Origin: Natrialba sp. SSL1
Lineage (GTDB): Archaea > Halobacteriota > Halobacteria > Halobacteriales > Natrialbaceae
Assembly: GCF_001861355.1 (NCBI RefSeq)
Contig: NZ_MASN01000018.1
Location: 310,001-374,000 of the forward strand
Reading direction: 5' to 3'
DNA: 64,000 nt
Every line of letters begins with the position of its first letter. The first letter of the stretch is position 1. The notes under the pieces are model-generated. The model had not been told where the DNA came from, ran no database searches, and saw only the letters and a program-made list of their open reading frames with translations. A program made the position numbers and the translations under genes. Below are positions 52,973-63,530 of the stretch, piece by piece.

Positions 52973-54376
52973 TCAAGAGACAAGCGTATACCGCCGCCCA
53001 GGTCCCTTGTAGAGTCCGTACAGTCCGTCGTCGGCAACCACTACCAGTCTGTCGTCGGCGAGCAGCAGGTCGTCTCGACACGAGACTTCCTCGAGTGGTC
53101 GTACACTCCACCAGGACTCACCCTCGGCAGTGATAGCCACGAGCCCACAACTATTCATTGATGGTCCAACTCCCCAGCCGTAGACGCCGTCTGCGTCGGC
53201 GACGAGCGTCCCACGGAACGCGTAGTCGTCGCGCCGCCAGGCGAGGTCACCTGACGCAGCGTCGACAGCCGTGAGTACGTCGCCAGCGCGACAGTACACC
53301 CGCGCCGTGTCGGAAGCTGACGCGGAAGCAGAAACGGGACGCAACGTCACTCCACCCATCTCGGCAGTCTCGGTGAGGGGTACCGTGAACTGCTGCTCGC
53401 CGTCCGGAGCGATCCCCCGTACTTCCGGAACGTGCTCGTCACTGCCGTCGAGAGCCACGAGAGCGGACTCCCCGACAGCGACGACATCCCTGAAACGAGG
53501 GTGGGTGCTGCTGGATTGGACGGTGCCGTCCGAATCGAGGCAGACCAGTGCTGGGTCGTAACCAGAATCTGGGTTGCTAGCGGTGAGAACCCAGAGATCG
53601 TCCGTCGTGATTGCGGTTGCGCTGAGCAGAACGTCGGTGTCGTCGTCAGTGGTGCTGTTGGTGCCGTCATCACCGGTTCGGCCGCCGAGATCGGCAAGTG
53701 TCTGCTCGAAGCGCAACTCGCCGGTGTCGGTGTCGAAGCAGACGAGTCCATCGGAATGCGTGCCGACGAGAAGCGACGAGTCGATTCCGGATCGTGCGGT
53801 CCGAAGCGCGAGTTCCGGGCCGTCCCAGGTGATCTCCCAGCGTATGGGGGTCTCGGTCGAGGACTCGGAACTACTATTATTACTATTACTATTACTATTA
53901 CTACTGTTGCTGGTGCCAGAACTCGAGCCGATGTCGGTGTTGGAACCAGTGCTTGACCCGTCTTCACCCCCATCCGTCTCGTACGCGATCGAAACGATGC
54001 GGTCGTCCTCCAACTGAAAGTACGCATCCCCATCGGAAACCGCTGGCACCCCGACGTACTGCGCCGGTGTACTCCCGCTCCAGACGCGGTCTCCACTCGA
54101 GTCCCGAAGCGTGAGAGCGGCGTCGTCGACCTCGCCAAACCCGTTTTGGGTGAACGTGCGTCCGCTGCGATTGCGAACGTGGGCGACGTGTGATCCATCG
54201 GAGAACCAGCGGTCGTCCGCCGTCCGCATCGGGCCAGGGACGTTCGAGCGACCGGTTGCATGGTGCCAGTCGAACTCGCCGCCACCGGGCTGGTAGCCAC
54301 AGCCGGCAACTGCGGTCGCCAGCCCGGTTCCGACAGCGGTGAGTACTCGCCGCCGAGTGAGTCGGCCCTCTGTCAT
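52973..54376 (-). CDS. PQQ-like beta-propeller lipoprotein (Tat signal)
   Basis: 467 residues. The N-terminus MTEGRLTRRRVLTAVGTGLA has a twin-Arg-like RRR followed by the lipobox AVAGC at about residue 26, so it is exported folded and lipid-anchored. Blade-like repeats follow: LVCFDTDTGELRFEQ, LVCLDSDGTVQSS and LTAVDAASGDLAWRR, typical of PQQ-like eight-bladed propellers. A disordered Asn/Ser stretch is encoded by a trinucleotide repeat at 53870-53905. It overlaps the HtpX-like gene by 4 nt. The ligand is unknown. Confidence 0.88.
   Translation of the reverse strand: MTEGRLTRRRVLTAVGTGLATAVAGCGYQPGGGEFDWHHATGRSNVPGPMRTADDRWFSDGSHVAHVRNRSGRTFTQNGFGEVDDAALTLRDSSGDRVWSGSTPAQYVGVPAVSDGDAYFQLEDDRIVSIAYETDGGEDGSSTGSNTDIGSSSGTSNSSNSNSNSNNSSSESSTETPIRWEITWDGPELALRTARSGIDSSLLVGTHSDGLVCFDTDTGELRFEQTLADLGGRTGDDGTNSTTDDDTDVLLSATAITTDDLWVLTASNPDSGYDPALVCLDSDGTVQSSSTHPRFRDVVAVGESALVALDGSDEHVPEVRGIAPDGEQQFTVPLTETAEMGGVTLRPVSASASASDTARVYCRAGDVLTAVDAASGDLAWRRDDYAFRGTLVADADGVYGWGVGPSMNSCGLVAITAEGESWWSVRPLEEVSCRDDLLLADDRLVVVADDGLYGLYKGPGRRYTLVS
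53870..53905. repeat. ACT/ATT trinucleotide microsatellite in a coding region
   Basis: Twelve in-frame triplets of ACT or ATT in a row (read on + strand). On the coding strand they give AGT/AAT, that is Ser/Asn. The tract is AT-rich in a GC-rich gene and can change length without a frameshift. Confidence 0.9.
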
Positions 54377-55464
54377 CCCAGATCACTCCCCGTACTCGCC
54401 GCAGCGGTCATCCCACCAGTCTCGCGTTCGAGTTCACGAAGGCGGTCGATTCGGGTCTCGGTCGGCGGATGCGTGTCTGGAAAGATGTCCGTGCTGATGA
54501 GCTCTTGCGAGCCGAACGCGCGGTCCTCGAGCGGCGCGAGGTACAGCGCCTCCACGCCACCGTCGAGCTTCCGAAGATCTTCGTCGGGCTGATTGGGCAG
54601 TTCTGAATCGAGCGTCTCGAGTGCACTCGCGAGCGCCGCCGGCGATCCGGTGATCGTGGCGGCGGCGCGGTCTGCGACGTACTCGCGTTCGCGCGAGAGA
54701 ACGCGGTAAAACAGGACGCTCGCGAGCCAGAACATCGCCGAGACGGTCAGCGTTACGACCGCACAGACGGTGATGACGACGATGGCGACGAGCAGTGCAC
54801 GACCGTCGCTGTCCCCGCCCGATCCGCCGGAGCTGAAGCCTGAGCCGAGCAGCCGATAGAAGCCGTAGAGGACGTAGAACGCGACGAAAGCGAGATAGTA
54901 CGTGATCGTCGGCAACAGCCACGCGACGGTCATCAGGTTGGCGTCACGGTTCGAAATATGCGCGAGTTCGTGTGCGAGGACGGCCTCGAGTTCCTCCTCG
55001 GAGAGCATCTCGAGTAAGCCGGTCGTGACCACGACGTACTCCTCGTCTGCCCGCCCGACACCGGCGACCGCGAACGCGTTCGGCACGGTGCTGTCGATCA
55101 CTGCGACGCCAGGGGTTGCGATGCCAATCTGTGACGACAGGCGCGTCACTGTTGCGTGCAGAGACGGGTACGCATCAGCGTCGACTGGCCGTGCGTCGAC
55201 CGACCGCAGGACAGCGCTCGGACCGTATCGGTACTGAACGAGGAGGCCACCGAGGACGACGACGGTCAGGAGCAACGGATCGACGTAGAACTCACCGTGG
55301 AACGGCCGTTCGTTCGCCCACTCGAGGAGCGCGATACCGACGGTGTTCGCGAGAAATACGAACGTGTAGACGAACGCGAACGGCAAGCAGACGACGAGTG
55401 TGAGGGCGACTCCCATTCGGAAGCGAAAGCCGCGTCCGGGAACGGGTGTCTGCGTTGACGGCAT
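54373..55464 (-). CDS. htpX: M48 family metalloprotease (HtpX-like)
   Basis: 363 residues from ATG 55464 (MPSTQTPVPGRGFRFRMGV). HELAH at residues 165-169 is the zinc site, with a downstream Glu in REREYVADRAAA. Four hydrophobic helices are visible. HtpX-like proteases degrade damaged membrane proteins. A TATA-like CTATACC (reverse strand of 55488-55494) lies about 27 nt upstream of 55464 and fixes this start over the in-frame ATG at 55563. It shares a 4-nt overlap with the propeller lipoprotein gene. Confidence 0.93.
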   Translation of the reverse strand: MPSTQTPVPGRGFRFRMGVALTLVVCLPFAFVYTFVFLANTVGIALLEWANERPFHGEFYVDPLLLTVVVLGGLLVQYRYGPSAVLRSVDARPVDADAYPSLHATVTRLSSQIGIATPGVAVIDSTVPNAFAVAGVGRADEEYVVVTTGLLEMLSEEELEAVLAHELAHISNRDANLMTVAWLLPTITYYLAFVAFYVLYGFYRLLGSGFSSGGSGGDSDGRALLVAIVVITVCAVVTLTVSAMFWLASVLFYRVLSREREYVADRAAATITGSPAALASALETLDSELPNQPDEDLRKLDGGVEALYLAPLEDRAFGSQELISTDIFPDTHPPTETRIDRLRELERETGGMTAAASTGSDLG

Positions 55465-55487
55465 TGACTCGGCATCGACCGCGGACC

Positions 55488-55494
55488 GGTATAG
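55488..55494 (-). promoter_or_regulatory. TATA box of htpX-like gene
   Basis: CTATACC on the minus strand about 27 nt before ATG 55464. Position gives a leaderless start. Confidence 0.55.
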
Positions 55495-55650
55495 TTGTTG
55501 TAGATTGATGTTTGGAGAGTTAGTGAGTGGTCGGGGTATTGGGTGTGAGTATTCAACCAACATCAGTAATGACCACTAGCTGTTTAAGGAGTAGTCACAT
55601 ATACGAGACGATCGTCCACTGAGTTAGCCATACAATGGTGTTTCACAACA

Positions 55651-56637
55651 ATGTCAACTGACGCCGAGACCGACGGTCGCTCGACCTGCACCGCACCCGA
55701 CGAACCGTTCATCGTAACGCGACCACGTCTCGAGGTCGTTCGCTCCCGGATTGTCGACTCGATTCAACAGCGCGTCGCCGATGCAGGTGCCCACGGCGTC
55801 GTCGTCGCGATGAGCGGCGGCCTCGATTCGACCGTCACGGCAACGCTGGCCGTCGAGGCACTCGGCCCCGAACGCGTCCTCGGCCTCGCACTCCCGTGTC
55901 ACAAAACCGAACAGCGCGACGCCCGCGACGCCCGCACAATTGCGGCAGGACTCGGCATGGCGTTCACCGAGATTCAACTGCGGCCGCTTCTCGAGTTGTT
56001 CGACGACACGGTGGCGAGTGTACTCGAGTGTCGGCTCGACGGAGACGGGAGGAGAGGCAGGGTCGAAATCGAAGATGACGACAGTGGCGGAGACGGCGAG
56101 AGCGGCAGTACCGACGACAGCGCCAGCAGTGCGCGACCCAACGAACGCAACTGCGAACTCGGGAACGTCGTTGCACGCCTTCGGATGAGTTGTGCCTACT
56201 ACGCGGCCAACCGCGAGCAGCGACTCGTCCTCGGCACGGCGAACCGCTCGGAGTTGTTACTCGGTTACTTCACCAAGTACGGCGACGGAGCGGCGGACAG
56301 CTATCCGATCGGCGACCTCTACAAGACCGAAGTGCGAGCGCTCGCACAACGAATCGGCGTTCCGCGGCGGATCATCAGCAAGTCGCCGACGGCTGGCTTC
56401 TGGGCCGACCAGACCGACGCCGACGAGCTCGGTGCCCCGTACGAGACGATCGATCCACTGCTGTTCCGGCTGGTCGAACAAGCGCAATCAGTCACCGAGG
56501 CTGCTGCCGATCTCGATCTCGACTCGGAGACGGCGCGAGCGATTGCGTGGCTGTGTGCCGAAACCGAGCACAAACGATGTCGACCGCCGATACCGGATGT
56601 CGATCGGCTCAAGCGCGGCGGTACCGACGCGAACTGA
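55651..56637 (+). CDS. nadE: NAD+ synthetase
   Basis: 328 residues. It amidates nicotinate adenine dinucleotide to NAD+ with ammonia. The PP-loop SGGLDSTV is at about residues 55-62, and later motifs are LGTANRSELLLGYFTKYGDGAAD and KSPTAGFWADQTDADELG. An acidic insert (about 142-162, DDDSGGDGESGSTDD) lengthens the loop between the two halves. There is no glutaminase domain, so the enzyme uses free ammonia. It is transcribed alone. Confidence 0.95.
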   Translation: MSTDAETDGRSTCTAPDEPFIVTRPRLEVVRSRIVDSIQQRVADAGAHGVVVAMSGGLDSTVTATLAVEALGPERVLGLALPCHKTEQRDARDARTIAAGLGMAFTEIQLRPLLELFDDTVASVLECRLDGDGRRGRVEIEDDDSGGDGESGSTDDSASSARPNERNCELGNVVARLRMSCAYYAANREQRLVLGTANRSELLLGYFTKYGDGAADSYPIGDLYKTEVRALAQRIGVPRRIISKSPTAGFWADQTDADELGAPYETIDPLLFRLVEQAQSVTEAAADLDLDSETARAIAWLCAETEHKRCRPPIPDVDRLKRGGTDAN

Positions 56638-57183: not shown

Positions 57184-57477
57184 TTATTCCGCGCAGCAGG
57201 CGTCTTTCTTCGGGGCCTCTTCCACACCGCTTCCATCCGCCGCTACTGGCTCCTCCAGCCGATACAAGCTCTGGCGCGCATCAGCAAAGTAGATATCCTC
57301 GTCGACGATTCCGATCTCCTCGAGACGCTCGAGTGCGTACCGAACCGTTCGCGCCGAGAGCATCGACTCCTCGACGATCTGCTTCTGGGTGAGCGGCCCG
57401 TCGTACTCGAGAACCTTGAAAACGAGTTTGGCGCTCGGAGGCAAGTCTTCGATCTCCTCCCCGTCGGTCTCTACCAT
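57184..57477 (-). CDS. Small winged-helix regulator with C-terminal CC
   Basis: 97 residues. A winged helix covers about residues 12-75: PSAKLVFKVLEYDGPLTQKQ, then EESMLSARTVRYALERLEEIGIV and YFADARQSLYRLEE. The tail ends with KKDACCAE, a Cys pair that could sense redox state or metal. From memory such small MarR/TrmB-like regulators are frequent in haloarchaea. A TTTTATA box (reverse strand of 57503-57509) is about 29 nt upstream, so it is leaderless. The large pilin-like gene is divergent from it, with 261 nt between. Confidence 0.88.
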   Translation of the reverse strand: MVETDGEEIEDLPPSAKLVFKVLEYDGPLTQKQIVEESMLSARTVRYALERLEEIGIVDEDIYFADARQSLYRLEEPVAADGSGVEEAPKKDACCAE

Positions 57478-57510: not shown

Positions 57511-57723
57511 TTGAGCCTTTCACCGACAGACTTACAGAAAATTCCACCCGCTGAATCAAGTAAAGTGGACCCACTGCATCTGCAAGTGCCGATATCGGCC
57601 ATTGACCAGGTGGTCAGCCGCTTCTTGCAATGGGTCGTCGATGACGATTCGGCCGTTCGAGTCGTCTTCAACCCGGTAACATTGTTAGGTATACATATTT
57701 TTATAGTAGGTATTAGTTACTGA
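57511..57723 (+). pseudogene. Possible decayed HalOD1-like fragment
   Basis: The open frame has no ATG or GTG; its first possible start is TTG 57511. Residues from KVDPLHLQVPISAIDQVV to SAVRVVFNPVTLLG recall the HalOD1 domain core (xDPxxL...xIDxDALD then a VxFxYxG strand). The C-terminus runs into an AT-rich promoter-like region. The N-terminal part of a HalOD1 protein is missing. Similarity is weak and from memory, so this may be chance. Confidence 0.25.
57698..57706 (+). promoter_or_regulatory. TATA box of the pilin-like gene
   Basis: TTTTTATAG about 36 nt before ATG 57739, inside a 50-nt AT-rich stretch (57681-57738). A short leader of about 10 nt is expected. Confidence 0.5.
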
Positions 57724-57738
57724 CTCATAAGACTAGAA

Positions 57739-60700
57739 ATGGACGGGGATTTTAGGGTGTTCGGTGGGGACCGGGCCGCAAGTCCAGTACTAGGTATCGT
57801 TCTTCTCTTTGCGATGGTGGGGATCGGTGCGGTCCTGCTGTTCGCGGCTGGTTCCGTGATGCTCGATGGAATCGGCTCCGAGGTGGATCGCGAAAAAGCC
57901 CACTTGTGCATGGACGAGACCGACCACCGACTCGGGACTGTCGCCTCAACGGGATACGACCAGTCGATGGCGCTTGACGACCCAGATTGTCAACCAGCAG
58001 TCGTCAACGACGGCTCAATTTCAATCACCTGGTATAACAGTTCAGATGGAGACCGTCCACCATGGGGCAACTCGAGTCGGACGGTCACTGAAGAACTTGG
58101 TGCCCTTGAATTCAACCTCGATGATCGGACACTCGCACACCAAGGTGGTGCCATCTGGGAGGTCACAGACTCCGGTGTGCGAACCGAAAAGTCACCGCCG
58201 ATCGGCTTCACCGAGAACGGGGTATTGGGACTGGAATTCATGCAGGTCCACCAATCCGAGACTGTTGGTTCGGAAGGAGTCCTCCGACACGACTACGAAG
58301 GCGAGTCCGAAGCGGCAGCAAACCTCACTTCAGCAGTTGCGCGGGCGGAGGAAGACGTTGCAATTAAAATCGAGAGCGAGTATGCCGAGGGGTGGAAGAA
58401 CCACCTCGAAAGCGAAAAAGAGTATGCTGAACAATTCTCCGAGTTCGATGTCAATGTCGAGTCAACTTCGAATCCCAACGAGGTCGTGTTGACAATTGAG
58501 GAGATTGATGCAGCCCCAGAAGAGCCGTATTTCTTGGTTGAAGAGGACCACGGACTATGGCATCAAGGTGGGAACGAGCCACTTCCTAGTCATATTTTGG
58601 AGCACGAGGAGTCTTTCCATATCAATACGAAACTAACCAATTACGGAAACGAATCAGGGCAGGTCAACGCTACGCTCATGATTCGGGACGAATCCGGTAC
58701 TGGCGTCGAAAGCCGAGAGATCACGTCGAAGCAAGAAATTGAACCGGGAGAATCAATCTCGACCGCCGACCAGGAAGATTGGGAATGGGGCTCGCACAGC
58801 GCAAACCACTATTTCAAAACCGATAACACAACCGGTAACGCAAACGTCGATCGCACGATCGATGTCGAACCGGGGGAAGAGTACGAGTACAACGTCAAAA
58901 CAGATCCAGGAGGGGACACCCTCGACGAGCCAGGCCACTTCATTATCGAGGAAGATCCGCCGGAAGTCACTATCACTAACGTCGAGGATCCAGTCGGCCA
59001 GGGAGAGACGTTAACGGTCCACGCAAATGTCGAAAAGCGAGGGTATGGAGACGATCAACTCGTTTGGCTCAGTGGATTCGACGGCAATATCGTTGACACC
59101 GCCGAAGTCGATTCCGATGGGAGCGGAGAGGAATCCGTCGAACTCGAGTGGGGGAGCGTCGATCTGCCGACGGACTCCACTGATACCGAAATCGCAGTCG
59201 GAACAGAATCGAACAGCACCACCAAAGCGGTCGAAGTCAATCCCTCGCTCAACATAACGGATGTCGATGTGCTTGATGATCCGGTTGAGGAAGACGGGTC
59301 GGTAACCGTTGAGGCAGTCGTCGAGGCTATGGGTGATACAGCCGACACGGACGTGATACTGGAGGACTTCGATGGAAACGAAGCTGATAGCCAGTCCGTT
59401 CCGGTTCCAGGTGCAGGTACAGAGACTGTCGAACTCGAGTACGATAACGTTGGAGAGCGAACTGATCGCATCACGGTCAGGACGGATAGTTTCGAAGCAG
59501 AAGACGACGAGATGGAGGAAGTTGTCGTCGTCAAGCGGGATGGGCCAGAATGTGACGCCGTCGATTATGAGGGCAGTGGGTCAGAACATGACCCGTATCA
59601 AATAAGCAACGTCGATCAGCTTCAGTGTATCAACGACCAAGGTCTCGATGATCACTACGAACTCGTCGACGACATCGATGCTCATGGGACCGAGTACTGG
59701 AATCCAGATGTGGTCGACACGGATAGCCACTCAGAGACCGTCACTGCCGAAAACGGCGAATTTGGAGCAGGAGATCAGATCGAACTCTCGGAAACACCAG
59801 TGGTGGAAGGAAGCGTCGAAGTGGATGCAGGATTTTGGGATAGTAACCCAGACTTCGAACTCGTTGATGACGAAGCAGGGATCGTAGAGATACAAGATAA
59901 TCCTGGATGGGGTGACGACTGGGCACAACTGGATGTCTCCTATGAAACTCCAGCAGAGTCCGGCGAACCACGTGGATTCGAACCAATTGGGAACGGTGGA
60001 CACGACTGGCTGGAAGGTTCATCTCGATGTGATCGACCGTGTAGCTGGGAAGGTCAACTGTTCAGCGGGACGTTTGACGGGAACGGAAGCGTCATCGAAG
60101 GGCTGCACATTGACCGGCCGGACGAACGCTTCGTAGGCCTATTCGGTTCAACGAGCCTTCCCCACGTTGAAGACGAGAACGGTTTCGAAACCGTGGACGT
60201 AGGTGAGGGCTCAGAAATACGTCATGTCCGGCTGGAAGACGTTTATATACATGGACAGCGGTACGTCGGTGCACTTGCAGGTCAAGCCGGTGGAACGATT
60301 GATCAATCCAGTAGTGACGGTGTGGTGAAAGCAGAAGAACAACTGGTTGGAGGATTAGTCGGAGCTGGTGCACACGCCGAGCTAGACAACGAACTCGTCG
60401 CTCAGGGAACAGTAATCGGTGGCGATAACAGAGATGGATTCCTTGGGGAGGGGATCGGAGGATTAGTTGGTCGGACTCACTGGGGGTCGACCTTGTCCGT
60501 CGGTTACACACAGAACATTGATGTTGAGTTTACGGGATCCGGACACTCGAACGCTGGCGGTGTCCTCGGTGCCACATCGTACGTCGATTCAGAGTTTGAT
60601 CAGATGTACACTAACGTGAGTGTTTCCGGCACCAGCGGCGGTGCGCTCGTCGGATCGATCCTCCAGCAGTCTGGGGAGAGCGGTGACGTATTCACCAATG

Positions 60701-61335
60701 CGGTCTACTGGGATCGGACCGAACACGAGGATGGCTACGGACGCCAAGAGGGATCTGGTACAACTCCGACTCCAACGCTGAACTGGAACGATCGTGCTAC
60801 GGAGGAGATGACTGGACTCAACGTCATCGAAGATGGCCGGATGGGGAATCTCAACTTTGAGGAAGAGGGTGGCCCATGGGCCGCCGTCCCCGACGATTAC
60901 CCACGGTTCGGCTGGGAACTCGAGGCCGAGGGGATCTTCGAGGTCGACATTAACAACGTCGAGAACGTAAATGCCAGTGAATCCGCCACAATCGAGGCTA
61001 CGGTCACAAGTCGTGATCCGGATCTGGATGAGGAAGATGTCCCACAGATAATTACGCTCACCAACCCCGACGGCCAGGTCGTCGATACAAAAGAAGTGGT
61101 AGAAAGTGATCTAAACGAAGACGGTGAGACGGAGATTGAACTCGAGTGGCAGACAAGTCTCAATGACGATGGCAGCGGCGAGGTTACTGTTCGAAGCGAG
61201 GATCGAGAGGATTCAGCACCGATCGAGATCGAACCCGGCGAAGAAATCGACTGGACTGGGGACGCAGATGGATCATTGGACGACATCGGCGATTCCACGA
61301 TTGATATTGATGTCGACGCCATCACAGTTGGCTGA
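57739..61335 (+). CDS. Giant pilin-like surface adhesin with Ig-like domains and GLUG-type region
   Basis: 1198 residues. Residues about 10-38 form a type IV pilin class III signal (DRAASPVLGIVLLFAMVGIG) that PibD-like peptidase could cut, placing the rest outside the cell. A domain like haloarchaeal DUF7289 (my recollection) covers about 40-270. Two Ig/CARDB-like repeats lie at about 410-500 and 504-600, and a third at about 1067-1170. A GLUG-like beta-helix region (FSGTFDGNG at 775; GGLVG repeats up to about 1060) lies between. The gene is clearly AT-richer than its neighbours, so it may be transferred. Function as an adhesin is inference. Confidence 0.85.
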   Translation: MDGDFRVFGGDRAASPVLGIVLLFAMVGIGAVLLFAAGSVMLDGIGSEVDREKAHLCMDETDHRLGTVASTGYDQSMALDDPDCQPAVVNDGSISITWYNSSDGDRPPWGNSSRTVTEELGALEFNLDDRTLAHQGGAIWEVTDSGVRTEKSPPIGFTENGVLGLEFMQVHQSETVGSEGVLRHDYEGESEAAANLTSAVARAEEDVAIKIESEYAEGWKNHLESEKEYAEQFSEFDVNVESTSNPNEVVLTIEEIDAAPEEPYFLVEEDHGLWHQGGNEPLPSHILEHEESFHINTKLTNYGNESGQVNATLMIRDESGTGVESREITSKQEIEPGESISTADQEDWEWGSHSANHYFKTDNTTGNANVDRTIDVEPGEEYEYNVKTDPGGDTLDEPGHFIIEEDPPEVTITNVEDPVGQGETLTVHANVEKRGYGDDQLVWLSGFDGNIVDTAEVDSDGSGEESVELEWGSVDLPTDSTDTEIAVGTESNSTTKAVEVNPSLNITDVDVLDDPVEEDGSVTVEAVVEAMGDTADTDVILEDFDGNEADSQSVPVPGAGTETVELEYDNVGERTDRITVRTDSFEAEDDEMEEVVVVKRDGPECDAVDYEGSGSEHDPYQISNVDQLQCINDQGLDDHYELVDDIDAHGTEYWNPDVVDTDSHSETVTAENGEFGAGDQIELSETPVVEGSVEVDAGFWDSNPDFELVDDEAGIVEIQDNPGWGDDWAQLDVSYETPAESGEPRGFEPIGNGGHDWLEGSSRCDRPCSWEGQLFSGTFDGNGSVIEGLHIDRPDERFVGLFGSTSLPHVEDENGFETVDVGEGSEIRHVRLEDVYIHGQRYVGALAGQAGGTIDQSSSDGVVKAEEQLVGGLVGAGAHAELDNELVAQGTVIGGDNRDGFLGEGIGGLVGRTHWGSTLSVGYTQNIDVEFTGSGHSNAGGVLGATSYVDSEFDQMYTNVSVSGTSGGALVGSILQQSGESGDVFTNAVYWDRTEHEDGYGRQEGSGTTPTPTLNWNDRATEEMTGLNVIEDGRMGNLNFEEEGGPWAAVPDDYPRFGWELEAEGIFEVDINNVENVNASESATIEATVTSRDPDLDEEDVPQIITLTNPDGQVVDTKEVVESDLNEDGETEIELEWQTSLNDDGSGEVTVRSEDREDSAPIEIEPGEEIDWTGDADGSLDDIGDSTIDIDVDAITVG

Positions 61336-61389
61336 CTGAGCCGCCACCAACCCGAACCCCTTTTCACCACCGACGATAGAGTCACAGAC

Positions 61390-61713
61390 ATGTCGACCGA
61401 ATCGATTAGCGACCGGCGCGAGCATATCCGCTCGATCAGCGTCACCGCGCTGGCCGCGCTGCTCGGCGTCGGGACGGCGCTCGCCTCCATGGCGCTCACC
61501 GGTGATGTCTCACCGGGTGAGGCCGCAGGCGATACGCGAGCGCTCTTGCTCGTCCTCACCGCGATCGTCGCACAGATCGTGCTCTTTGACGCCACGAGCA
61601 TCTACAGCGACGACGAGTTCGGGATCAAACACTACCTGTTCATCACGTTCATGACCTTCTCTATGTGGTTCGTGACGTGGGGAATCCTGCTCACCGCGGA
61701 GCTTAACGCATAA
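61390..61713 (+). CDS. EMC6-like membrane protein
   Basis: 107 residues with three hydrophobic helices (about 17-38, 50-67 and 80-103). The overall layout, with FGIKHYLFITFMTFSMWFVTW in the last helix, resembles archaeal EMC6-like proteins. The eukaryotic EMC inserts membrane proteins, so a membrane-biogenesis role is possible. It ends 2 nt before abce1. TATA-like CCCTTTTC near 61358 precedes it. Confidence 0.82.
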   Translation: MSTESISDRREHIRSISVTALAALLGVGTALASMALTGDVSPGEAAGDTRALLLVLTAIVAQIVLFDATSIYSDDEFGIKHYLFITFMTFSMWFVTWGILLTAELNA

Positions 61714-61715
61714 CC

Positions 61716-63530
61716 ATGGCGGACGACAGCATCGCCGTCGTAGACCTGGATCGGTGCCAGCCCGACCGCTGTAGCTACGAGTGCAAGAACTACTGTCCAC
61801 CGAATCGGACCGGCAAGGAGTGCATCACGCTCCGGGGCGAAGAAACCCCAGAGGGACAGCCCGAGCAGGTTCGCATCTCCGAAGAGATCTGTCTCGGCGA
61901 AACCTGCGGTATCTGCGTCGAAAAGTGCCCCTTCGACGCAATCGAGATCATCAACCTACCACAGGAGTTGCAGGAAGAACCCGCACACCGCTACGGCGAG
62001 AACGCCTTCTCGCTGTACGGTCTCCCGGCCCCACAGGAGGGGAATGTCACCGGGATTCTCGGTCCGAACGGAATCGGGAAGACCACGGCCGTTCGCATTC
62101 TGGCCGGTGAACTCGAGCCGAACCTCGGCCGCTACGAGGAGTCGCCAGACTGGGACGATGTACTCGAGGCCTATCGTGGCACGGAGCTTCAGGACTACAT
62201 CGCAGACGTCCGCGACGGCGACATTACCATCGCCCGAAAGCCACAGTACGTCGACCAGATTCCGAAACAGTTCGACGGCAACACCCGCCAACTGTTGGAG
62301 CAGACGGACGAACGCGACGCCCTCGACTCGCTCGTCGAGCGGCTGTCGATCGGCCCCGTCATGGACCAGGCGATCGAGGATCTCTCCGGCGGCGAACTCC
62401 AGCGCGTTGCGCTCGCAGCGACGCTGGCGCGAGATACGGACTTCTACTTCCTGGACGAGATTACGCCGTACCTCGACATCGGACAGCGCGTTACCGCAGC
62501 GCGACTGATTCGCGAACTCGCCGAGGACGAGGGGAAATCGATGCTCGTCGTCGAGCACGACCTGGCGATTCTCGACCTACTCGCGGACACGCTGCACGTC
62601 GCCTACGGTGAACCCGGTGCCTACGGTGTGATTACCTCGCCGAAGTCGGTTCGGAACGGGATCAACGAGTACCTCTCGGGCTACCTCGACAACGAGAACA
62701 TGCGGATTCGCCAGAATCCGATCGAGTTCGAGGAGCATGCCCCACGAACCGCGACCCACGGCGACGTGCTCGTCGACTACCCCGACCTCTCCAAGAGCTA
62801 CGGTGATGGCGAGTTCAGCCTCGAGGTCGAAGGTGGCGAGATCCACCGCAACGAGGTCCTTGGCATCGTCGGCCCGAACGGGATCGGGAAGTCGACGTTC
62901 GCGAAGCTGCTGACGGGGAACCTCGAGACGGACGAAGGCGACGCTGATCTCGATCTGGAGATCTCCTACAAGCCCCAGTACGTGACGATCGACCAGCACA
63001 TGCGGGTCGACGCGTTCCTCTCCTCAATTACGGACCAGTTCGGCTCCTCGTACTGGAACACCGAGATCGCCCAGCCGCTCCAACTCGAGCGGATCATGGA
63101 ACAGAATCTTTCCGACCTCTCGGGCGGTGAGCGCCAGCGAGTTGCTATCGCTGCCTGTCTGTCCGATTCGGCAGATCTCTACCTGCTCGACGAGCCGTCG
63201 GCACACCTGGACGTCGAACAGCGCGTCCAGGCAACTAGCGCGATCCGACGCTACGCCGAACAGCAGGACGCGACCGTGATGGTCATCGATCACGACATCT
63301 ACATGATCGACCTGCTCGCGGACCGCCTGATGGTCTTCGACGGTGAACCCGCAATGCACGGTCACGCCGGCCAACCGCAGGCGATGCGCGACGGCATGAA
63401 CGAGTTCCTCGCTAATCTCGAGGTGACGTTCCGCCGTGACGAGCGTACGTCGCGTCCGCGGATCAACAAGCCTGAGTCGCAGCTAGACCGCGAGCAAAAG
63501 CGCGAAGGCGAGTACTACTACTCTCCCTGA
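61716..63530 (+). CDS. abce1: Ribosome-recycling ATPase ABCE1 (Rli1)
   Basis: 604 residues. Splits ribosomes after termination. Two N-terminal 4Fe-4S clusters are marked by CQPDRCSYECKNYC and CLGETCGICVEKCPF. Two ABC ATPase domains follow, with Walker A GPNGIGKTT near residue 115, LSGGELQR, then GPNGIGKST near 386 and LSGGERQR. DEITPYLD and DEPSAHLD are the Walker B/H-loop regions. This is a full-length typical ABCE1, translated together with the EMC6-like gene (2-nt gap). Confidence 0.97.
   Translation: MADDSIAVVDLDRCQPDRCSYECKNYCPPNRTGKECITLRGEETPEGQPEQVRISEEICLGETCGICVEKCPFDAIEIINLPQELQEEPAHRYGENAFSLYGLPAPQEGNVTGILGPNGIGKTTAVRILAGELEPNLGRYEESPDWDDVLEAYRGTELQDYIADVRDGDITIARKPQYVDQIPKQFDGNTRQLLEQTDERDALDSLVERLSIGPVMDQAIEDLSGGELQRVALAATLARDTDFYFLDEITPYLDIGQRVTAARLIRELAEDEGKSMLVVEHDLAILDLLADTLHVAYGEPGAYGVITSPKSVRNGINEYLSGYLDNENMRIRQNPIEFEEHAPRTATHGDVLVDYPDLSKSYGDGEFSLEVEGGEIHRNEVLGIVGPNGIGKSTFAKLLTGNLETDEGDADLDLEISYKPQYVTIDQHMRVDAFLSSITDQFGSSYWNTEIAQPLQLERIMEQNLSDLSGGERQRVAIAACLSDSADLYLLDEPSAHLDVEQRVQATSAIRRYAEQQDATVMVIDHDIYMIDLLADRLMVFDGEPAMHGHAGQPQAMRDGMNEFLANLEVTFRRDERTSRPRINKPESQLDREQKREGEYYYSP

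Follow-up and report, generated by a model that had tools for sequence, protein, structure and literature searches.

The stretch of DNA analysed here, referred to below as the window, comprises 64,000 nucleotides from Natrialba sp. SSL1. An open reading frame at 57739-61335 on the plus strand, running from an ATG to a TGA, encodes a protein of 1198 residues, exactly as the original prediction had it. We regard it as a real gene because full-length orthologues of 1175 and 1181 residues, with 77-78% identity, occupy the same position in two genomes of the same genus, one of them Natrialba chahannaoensis JCM 10990 and the other genome G002. The orthologues and a Pfam match to DUF7289 identify the product as a modular pilin-like protein, whose ectodomain belongs to the type termed class A below. 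Its neighbours are a gene for a 97-residue winged-helix regulator on the left (57184-57477, minus strand; Pfam HTH_24), an EMC6_arch gene on the right (61390-61713, plus strand; Pfam PF19094) and, adjoining the latter, an ABCE1/RLI-type gene (61716-63530, plus strand) that is kept in 41 of the 41 genomes searched. Synteny marks the regulator and EMC6 genes as the borders of a variable slot, and the seven Natrialba genomes, like most others of the family Natrialbaceae, all have the order winged-helix gene, slot, EMC6, ABCE1.

The contents of the slot differ between genera. A large DUF7289 gene occupies it in seven of seven genomes of the genus, and such a gene is alone there in Natrialba, Halobiforma nitratireducens and genome G023. 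The slot is empty in genome G008 and in several more distant haloarchaea, where the gap measures about 110-540 bp. In many Natrialbaceae it holds a gene cluster, accompanied or not by the big DUF7289 gene, that encodes a SipW-like signal peptidase, proteins of the DUF5305, CARDB and TasA-like types, and a DUF7344 regulator; TasA-like is our reading of short secreted proteins of the cluster that have no Pfam match. A TAG that lies in frame in the SipW gene of four Natrialba genomes proved to be the stop codon of that gene. To the left of the slot, PQQ-repeat, HtpX-like and NAD-synthetase-like genes (52973-56637) are variable too: the first two have no match in the G002 and G003 loci, and the NAD synthetase has none in the G006 locus. 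An antisense frame of 234 residues (60897-61601, minus strand) lies over the 3′ end of the DUF7289 gene and is also open in G002 and G006; it is probably a by-product of codon bias. Large DUF7289 genes have a second conserved home adjoining coxA (cytochrome oxidase subunit I), where both class A and class B ectodomains are found (loci L079, L080, L081, L083, L087, L088, L101, L107, L109, L110 and L115), together with members of ~500 residues and sometimes two or three copies.

Two features upstream of the gene may bear on its regulation. The palindrome TTGACCAGGTGGTCAG (57602-57617, plus strand) is present at all seven Natrialba loci, has one exact copy in the genome, and is kept between two unrelated allele classes despite the divergence of the surrounding DNA. 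It may be an operator of the neighbouring winged-helix regulator. A TATA-like box, ATATTTTTATAG (57695-57706, plus strand), lies about 40 nt 5′ of the start codon, and similar boxes are found upstream of most relatives.

The N-terminus of the protein carries the class III pilin signal that had been predicted (GGDR-A/ASPVLGIVLLFAMVGIGAVLLF), in which R12-A13/A14-S15 and P16 are followed by a hydrophobic H-domain. Residues 1-13 (57739-57777, on the plus strand like all protein segments below) would constitute the leader peptide, with a predicted PibD cut between A13 and A14 (RA/AS); the signal resembles the RAVS processing sites listed for PilA4-6 of Haloferax volcanii (PMC4371748), and a PibD gene is present in the genome. 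AF2 models place a pilin-type helix of 56 residues at 16-71 (57784-57951). The DUF7289-like domain of the original prediction is recovered as a match to PF23960 at residues 12-242 (57772-58464), with 48.3 bits against a curated cut-off of 27, and residues 1-269 modelled alone reach a pLDDT of 83.6 and a pTM of 0.74. The DUF7289 profile matches the solved archaeal pilins 8fj5, 8gi2 (Natrinema PilA2) and 9myg at modest E values of 0.001-0.004, and the N-terminus of one relative passes the Pfam Pilin_N cut-off (25.9 bits versus 25.2). A Foldseek search with the well-predicted domain found no PDB fold match for the DUF7289 head at E<=0.001. In a Pfam scan DUF7289 was the sole family above cut-off in the window protein, and the bacterial pilin N-domain IPR012902 is not present. 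The signal, the 56-residue helix and the DUF7289 match together support a pilin-like anchor.

Structure prediction also recovers Ig-type beta domains and a beta-helix beyond the stem, in a full-length AF2 model that is weak (mean pLDDT 66, pTM 0.34) and whose inter-domain arrangement is not reliable. The model bounds are a mixed alpha/beta region to ~254, beta domains at ~265-403, 409-497 and 503-596, a small beta domain at 661-738, the beta-helix at ~780-990 and a terminal strand at 1188-1197. The first of the beta domains (Ig-like 1, residues 261-405, 58519-58953) is seen in the model only. The three Ig-like repeats foreseen earlier are homologous by sequence: two of them form residues 406-602 (58954-59544), where segments ~408-492 and ~502-585 are 41% identical (E 2e-11), and the third follows the beta-helix at residues 1059-1172 (60913-61254), where segment ~1067-1138 is 41% identical to the first repeat (E 2e-8). 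Between these repeats lie a conserved cap (residues 603-656, 59545-59706), which is 65-96% identical in all class A proteins and retains the spacing of its cysteine pair C605/C630; a small beta domain (residues 657-740, 59707-59958; AF2 pLDDT about 85), which in the alignment is absent from relative L060; and the beta-helix head (residues 741-1050, 59959-60888). The protein ends in a short beta strand of alternating hydrophobic residues (1188-1198, 61300-61332); by the model and by sequence comparison, DUF7289 proteins of every module class close with this pattern. We considered whether this could be the final strand of the DUF7289 domain, the module being an insertion ahead of it, and rejected the idea, since single-domain members end with a strand of their own that aligns with residues ~248-257.

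The head had been described as a GLUG-type beta-helix. The beta-helix is borne out by the model, whereas the GLUG assignment comes through relatives: the window protein itself has no match to Pfam Glug (PF07581) at E<=1, the homologous segment of relative L094 matches it with 35.7 bits against a cut-off of 20.5, and plasmid proteins annotated as ‘GLUG motif-containing’ align to residues 745-1164 and 746-868. Fold matches of the full model to complement, alpha-2-macroglobulin and Bap reflect generic multi-Ig proteins and have no specific value, and similarities to MG2 and ribosomal L25 were taken as generic beta-sandwich noise. Aspartate and glutamate make up 23% of the 1198-residue protein, which has 11 N-glycosylation sequons. 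The stalk of Ig domains is supported, and a surface adhesin is the best functional guess.

Comparison of relatives shows that the outer part of these proteins changes while the rest is kept. Their ectodomains fall into three classes that have no mutual similarity at the threshold used: a beta-helix (class A, n=11), a CARDB-like module (class B, n=13) and a DUF7305 plus vWA module (class C, n=4), the last with a Pfam VWA match and a DxSxS motif. The DNA of a sister genome, G003, is 88.7% identical to the window up to 57546 and 93.3% identical from 61353, with nothing alignable between, and it carries class C rather than class A; its ABCE1 gene is the closest to that of the window (dS 0.26, versus 0.35-0.38 for G006 and G002). 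Similarly, the proteins of Natronorubrum bangense (class A) and N. thiooxidans (class B) are 84% identical over the first 100 residues, then 43% and about 28%. In a tree built from residues 1-125, several forks of which are weak, the class labels require six changes against a minimum of two.

Within class A the beta-helix has a history of its own. The head of the G002 protein is 80-82% identical to the heads of N. bangense and Natronolimnohabitans, with stems at 37-41% (37% for N. bangense), whereas it is only 57-62% identical to the head of the window protein, with stems at 83%. Between class A species, most comparisons of the beta-helix give a dS that is saturated or exceeds 2, and one gives 1.1; the stem and Ig parts, when compared with the window, have values of 0.14-0.67, and ABCE1 has 0.26-0.48. 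The class A trees of stem and head also disagree. For this combination of mismatched identities, contrasting dS and conflicting trees, we found no reading other than that the head has recombined. The whole ectodomain or the beta-helix alone has therefore been replaced between species, while the stem and C-terminus were kept. No second copy of the head was detected in the genome itself at E<=0.1, which led us to reject intragenomic cassette switching and points to other cells as the source of the heads.

Our preferred reading, to which we assign a probability of about 0.6, is that the gene encodes an archaeal modular pilin-like adhesin, in which a PibD-processed stem presents an exchangeable adhesive head. 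The genome has a PibD gene, two PilC-type proteins and five DUF7289 genes; large members are found across the Natrialbaceae. Of the five, the most typical (228 bits) encodes a single-domain paralogue of 257 residues and lies in a compact row with DUF7266, DUF7261, DUF7288, DUF7287 and a T2SSF/PilC gene (contig G000:C35; L131, 926-6274). This arrangement is the strongest indication that DUF7289 belongs to a pilin system. The paralogue shares the N-terminal domain and class III signal with the window protein and has no Ig stalk or head. The five uncharacterised DUF families of the row probably make up the pilin complement of a single haloarchaeal pilus system.

The protein could instead be a membrane-anchored stalk adhesin that has only borrowed a pilin-type signal and helix and never enters a filament, whether or not PibD processes it, with stalk and head acting as in the preferred reading. 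The window locus has no pilus assembly genes, its neighbours being EMC6 and ABCE1; the head of the stem domain lacks a solved pilin-like fold; and PibD in archaea has substrates outside pili as well, bindosome subunits among them (PMC4371748). On the other hand, the single-domain paralogue lies in a PilC operon and the helix profile matches archaeal pilins that do assemble. Some pilins of archaea are known to be encoded away from the assembly genes (PMC4858521), so that a locus of this kind is compatible with a pilin. We consider the membrane-anchored stalk possible, if doubtful.

The company that the gene keeps in other genera suggests another scenario, in which it would be an accessory that anchors or caps the fibres of a SipW/TasA-like matrix system. 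In five genera, namely Natronorubrum, Natrinema, Halopiger, Natronolimnohabitans and Natribaculum, it does lie within the cluster of SipW, DUF5305, TasA-like and DUF7344 genes that uses the same slot. In Natrialba, Halobiforma and G023, however, it stands alone. The cluster is located elsewhere in the genome in Natrialba sp. SSL1 itself (L125, G000:C4:1-16000) and in G002, G003 and G006 (L126-L128), the G002 copy being on a separate contig of 378 kb, while G001, G004 and G005 keep the gene with no good SipW match in their genomes. Several loci, conversely, have the cluster and no DUF7289 gene. An accessory role in such fibres is thus improbable.

Base composition had suggested a different history altogether, namely that of a foreign AT-rich gene acquired by transfer. 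The gene is the most AT-rich in the window (GC 0.544), with a GC3 of 0.565 against a window-gene mean of about 0.76, and its codon-usage z of -17.4 is the strongest outlier relative to a baseline of window genes only, the gene calls being mechanical. Its composition therefore does differ from that of its neighbours, as stated in the original prediction. The orthologues at the same locus, however, have the same low GC (0.544, 0.552), and the DUF7289 gene falls below the GC of its surroundings in 20 of 21 named Natrialbaceae relatives (L091-L110 and L115; L101 is the exception). AT-richness is thus a trait of the family and provides no evidence of recent transfer. Recent foreign acquisition is very improbable and largely refuted by synteny, by this family-wide low GC and by dS values of the stem and Ig parts that lie in the region of those for ABCE1; an origin from phage or plasmid was also rejected, since nothing matched in phages and the plasmid matches were partial, weak and below 60% identity. 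A search with PADLOC gave no match that would make it an anti-phage defence gene. Transfer does happen at this fixed locus, as whole alleles and head modules passing among haloarchaea, and composition alone would not reveal it. The 1198-residue protein belongs to a large family of Archaea, is resident in the genome and diversifies fast; it is no recently acquired oddity.

The modular pilin-like adhesin is best compared with the modular pilins described from bacteria, in which vWA or lectin modules are grafted onto a pilin and mediate adhesion, such as PilB (vWA) and PilC (lectin-like module) of Streptococcus sanguinis; the survey that described them was limited to the bacterial pilin N-domain (PMC8179133). 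The two have in common a class III signal, a pilin helix, a bulky module that is not pilus-specific, vWA among the modules, and many architectures on one type of stem. A pilin module is joined to a non-pilus-specific domain in both, here to Ig domains and a beta-helix and in sister alleles to vWA. The haloarchaeal proteins differ in being archaeal, in having a DUF7289 stem rather than IPR012902, in being far larger (1198 residues here), and in that close species can be seen to exchange heads at a single fixed locus. By analogy, then, the window protein may work like bacterial modular pilins while standing outside the set defined by their N-domain.

Other known systems are similar in part. The PilA-type pilins of Haloferax and Natrinema share the RA/xS processing motif, the hydrophobic helix and, through solved structures, a weak profile similarity, but they are small subunits (145-165 residues in solved chains) and the DUF7289 head has no PDB match. 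The original prediction had stressed the unusual length of the protein for a pilin. That is borne out, and yet it is less exceptional than supposed, since DUF7289 proteins of ~800-1340 residues occur at the ABCE1 and coxA loci across the Natrialbaceae. The PilY1/DUF2341 tip adhesins predicted in archaeal pili (PMC4858521) are likewise large adhesin candidates linked to type IV pili; they are not pilins themselves, and their domains differ from those of the window protein. A haloarchaeal precedent for the evolutionary pattern exists in the variable cell-wall genomic island of Haloquadratum walsbyi, where surface genes are diversified by homologous recombination, which has been attributed to virus pressure (PMC4535781). 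That island contains many glycoprotein genes, whereas here a single gene slot exchanges heads on a pilin-like stem that is kept.

How might such a protein function? The class III signal would target the chain for export, and PibD would cut after A13. The hydrophobic helix could then pack into a type IV pilus or remain in the membrane; if in a pilus, the protein would most likely be a rare tip-type subunit assembled by the PilB/PilC machinery of the cell. The DUF7289 domain would act as a stem and the Ig repeats as a stalk that raises the head above the S-layer, so that the beta-helix could be the contact surface for another cell, for a surface or, unintentionally, for a virus. A changing outer part on a kept anchor, stem and C-terminus leads us to expect that the head meets something variable, such as a partner cell, a surface polymer or a virus. 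From these considerations we infer that PibD processes the protein, that it is assembled into a pilus and binds a ligand, and that selection favours a head that changes, whether for partner specificity or for virus escape.

Finally, a broader proposal, which we advance tentatively and at slightly below even odds, is that the EMC6-ABCE1 locus of the Natrialbaceae is a fixed slot for a pilin-like presenter whose heads pass from one species or genus to another by recombination, with the conserved stem, Ig, cap and C-terminal sequences as its guides. Such a presenter would be the equivalent, in Archaea, of the modular pilins of bacteria and would evolve like a variable receptor under selection by viruses or partners. 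No paper naming DUF7289 was found in the literature searched, and the proposal would give the family its first functional setting. If the proposal is true, a family of archaeal stems without a solved counterpart carries beta-helix, CARDB-like or vWA heads at one locus, with exchange visible between sister species, and the principle of the modular pilin would extend to the Archaea.
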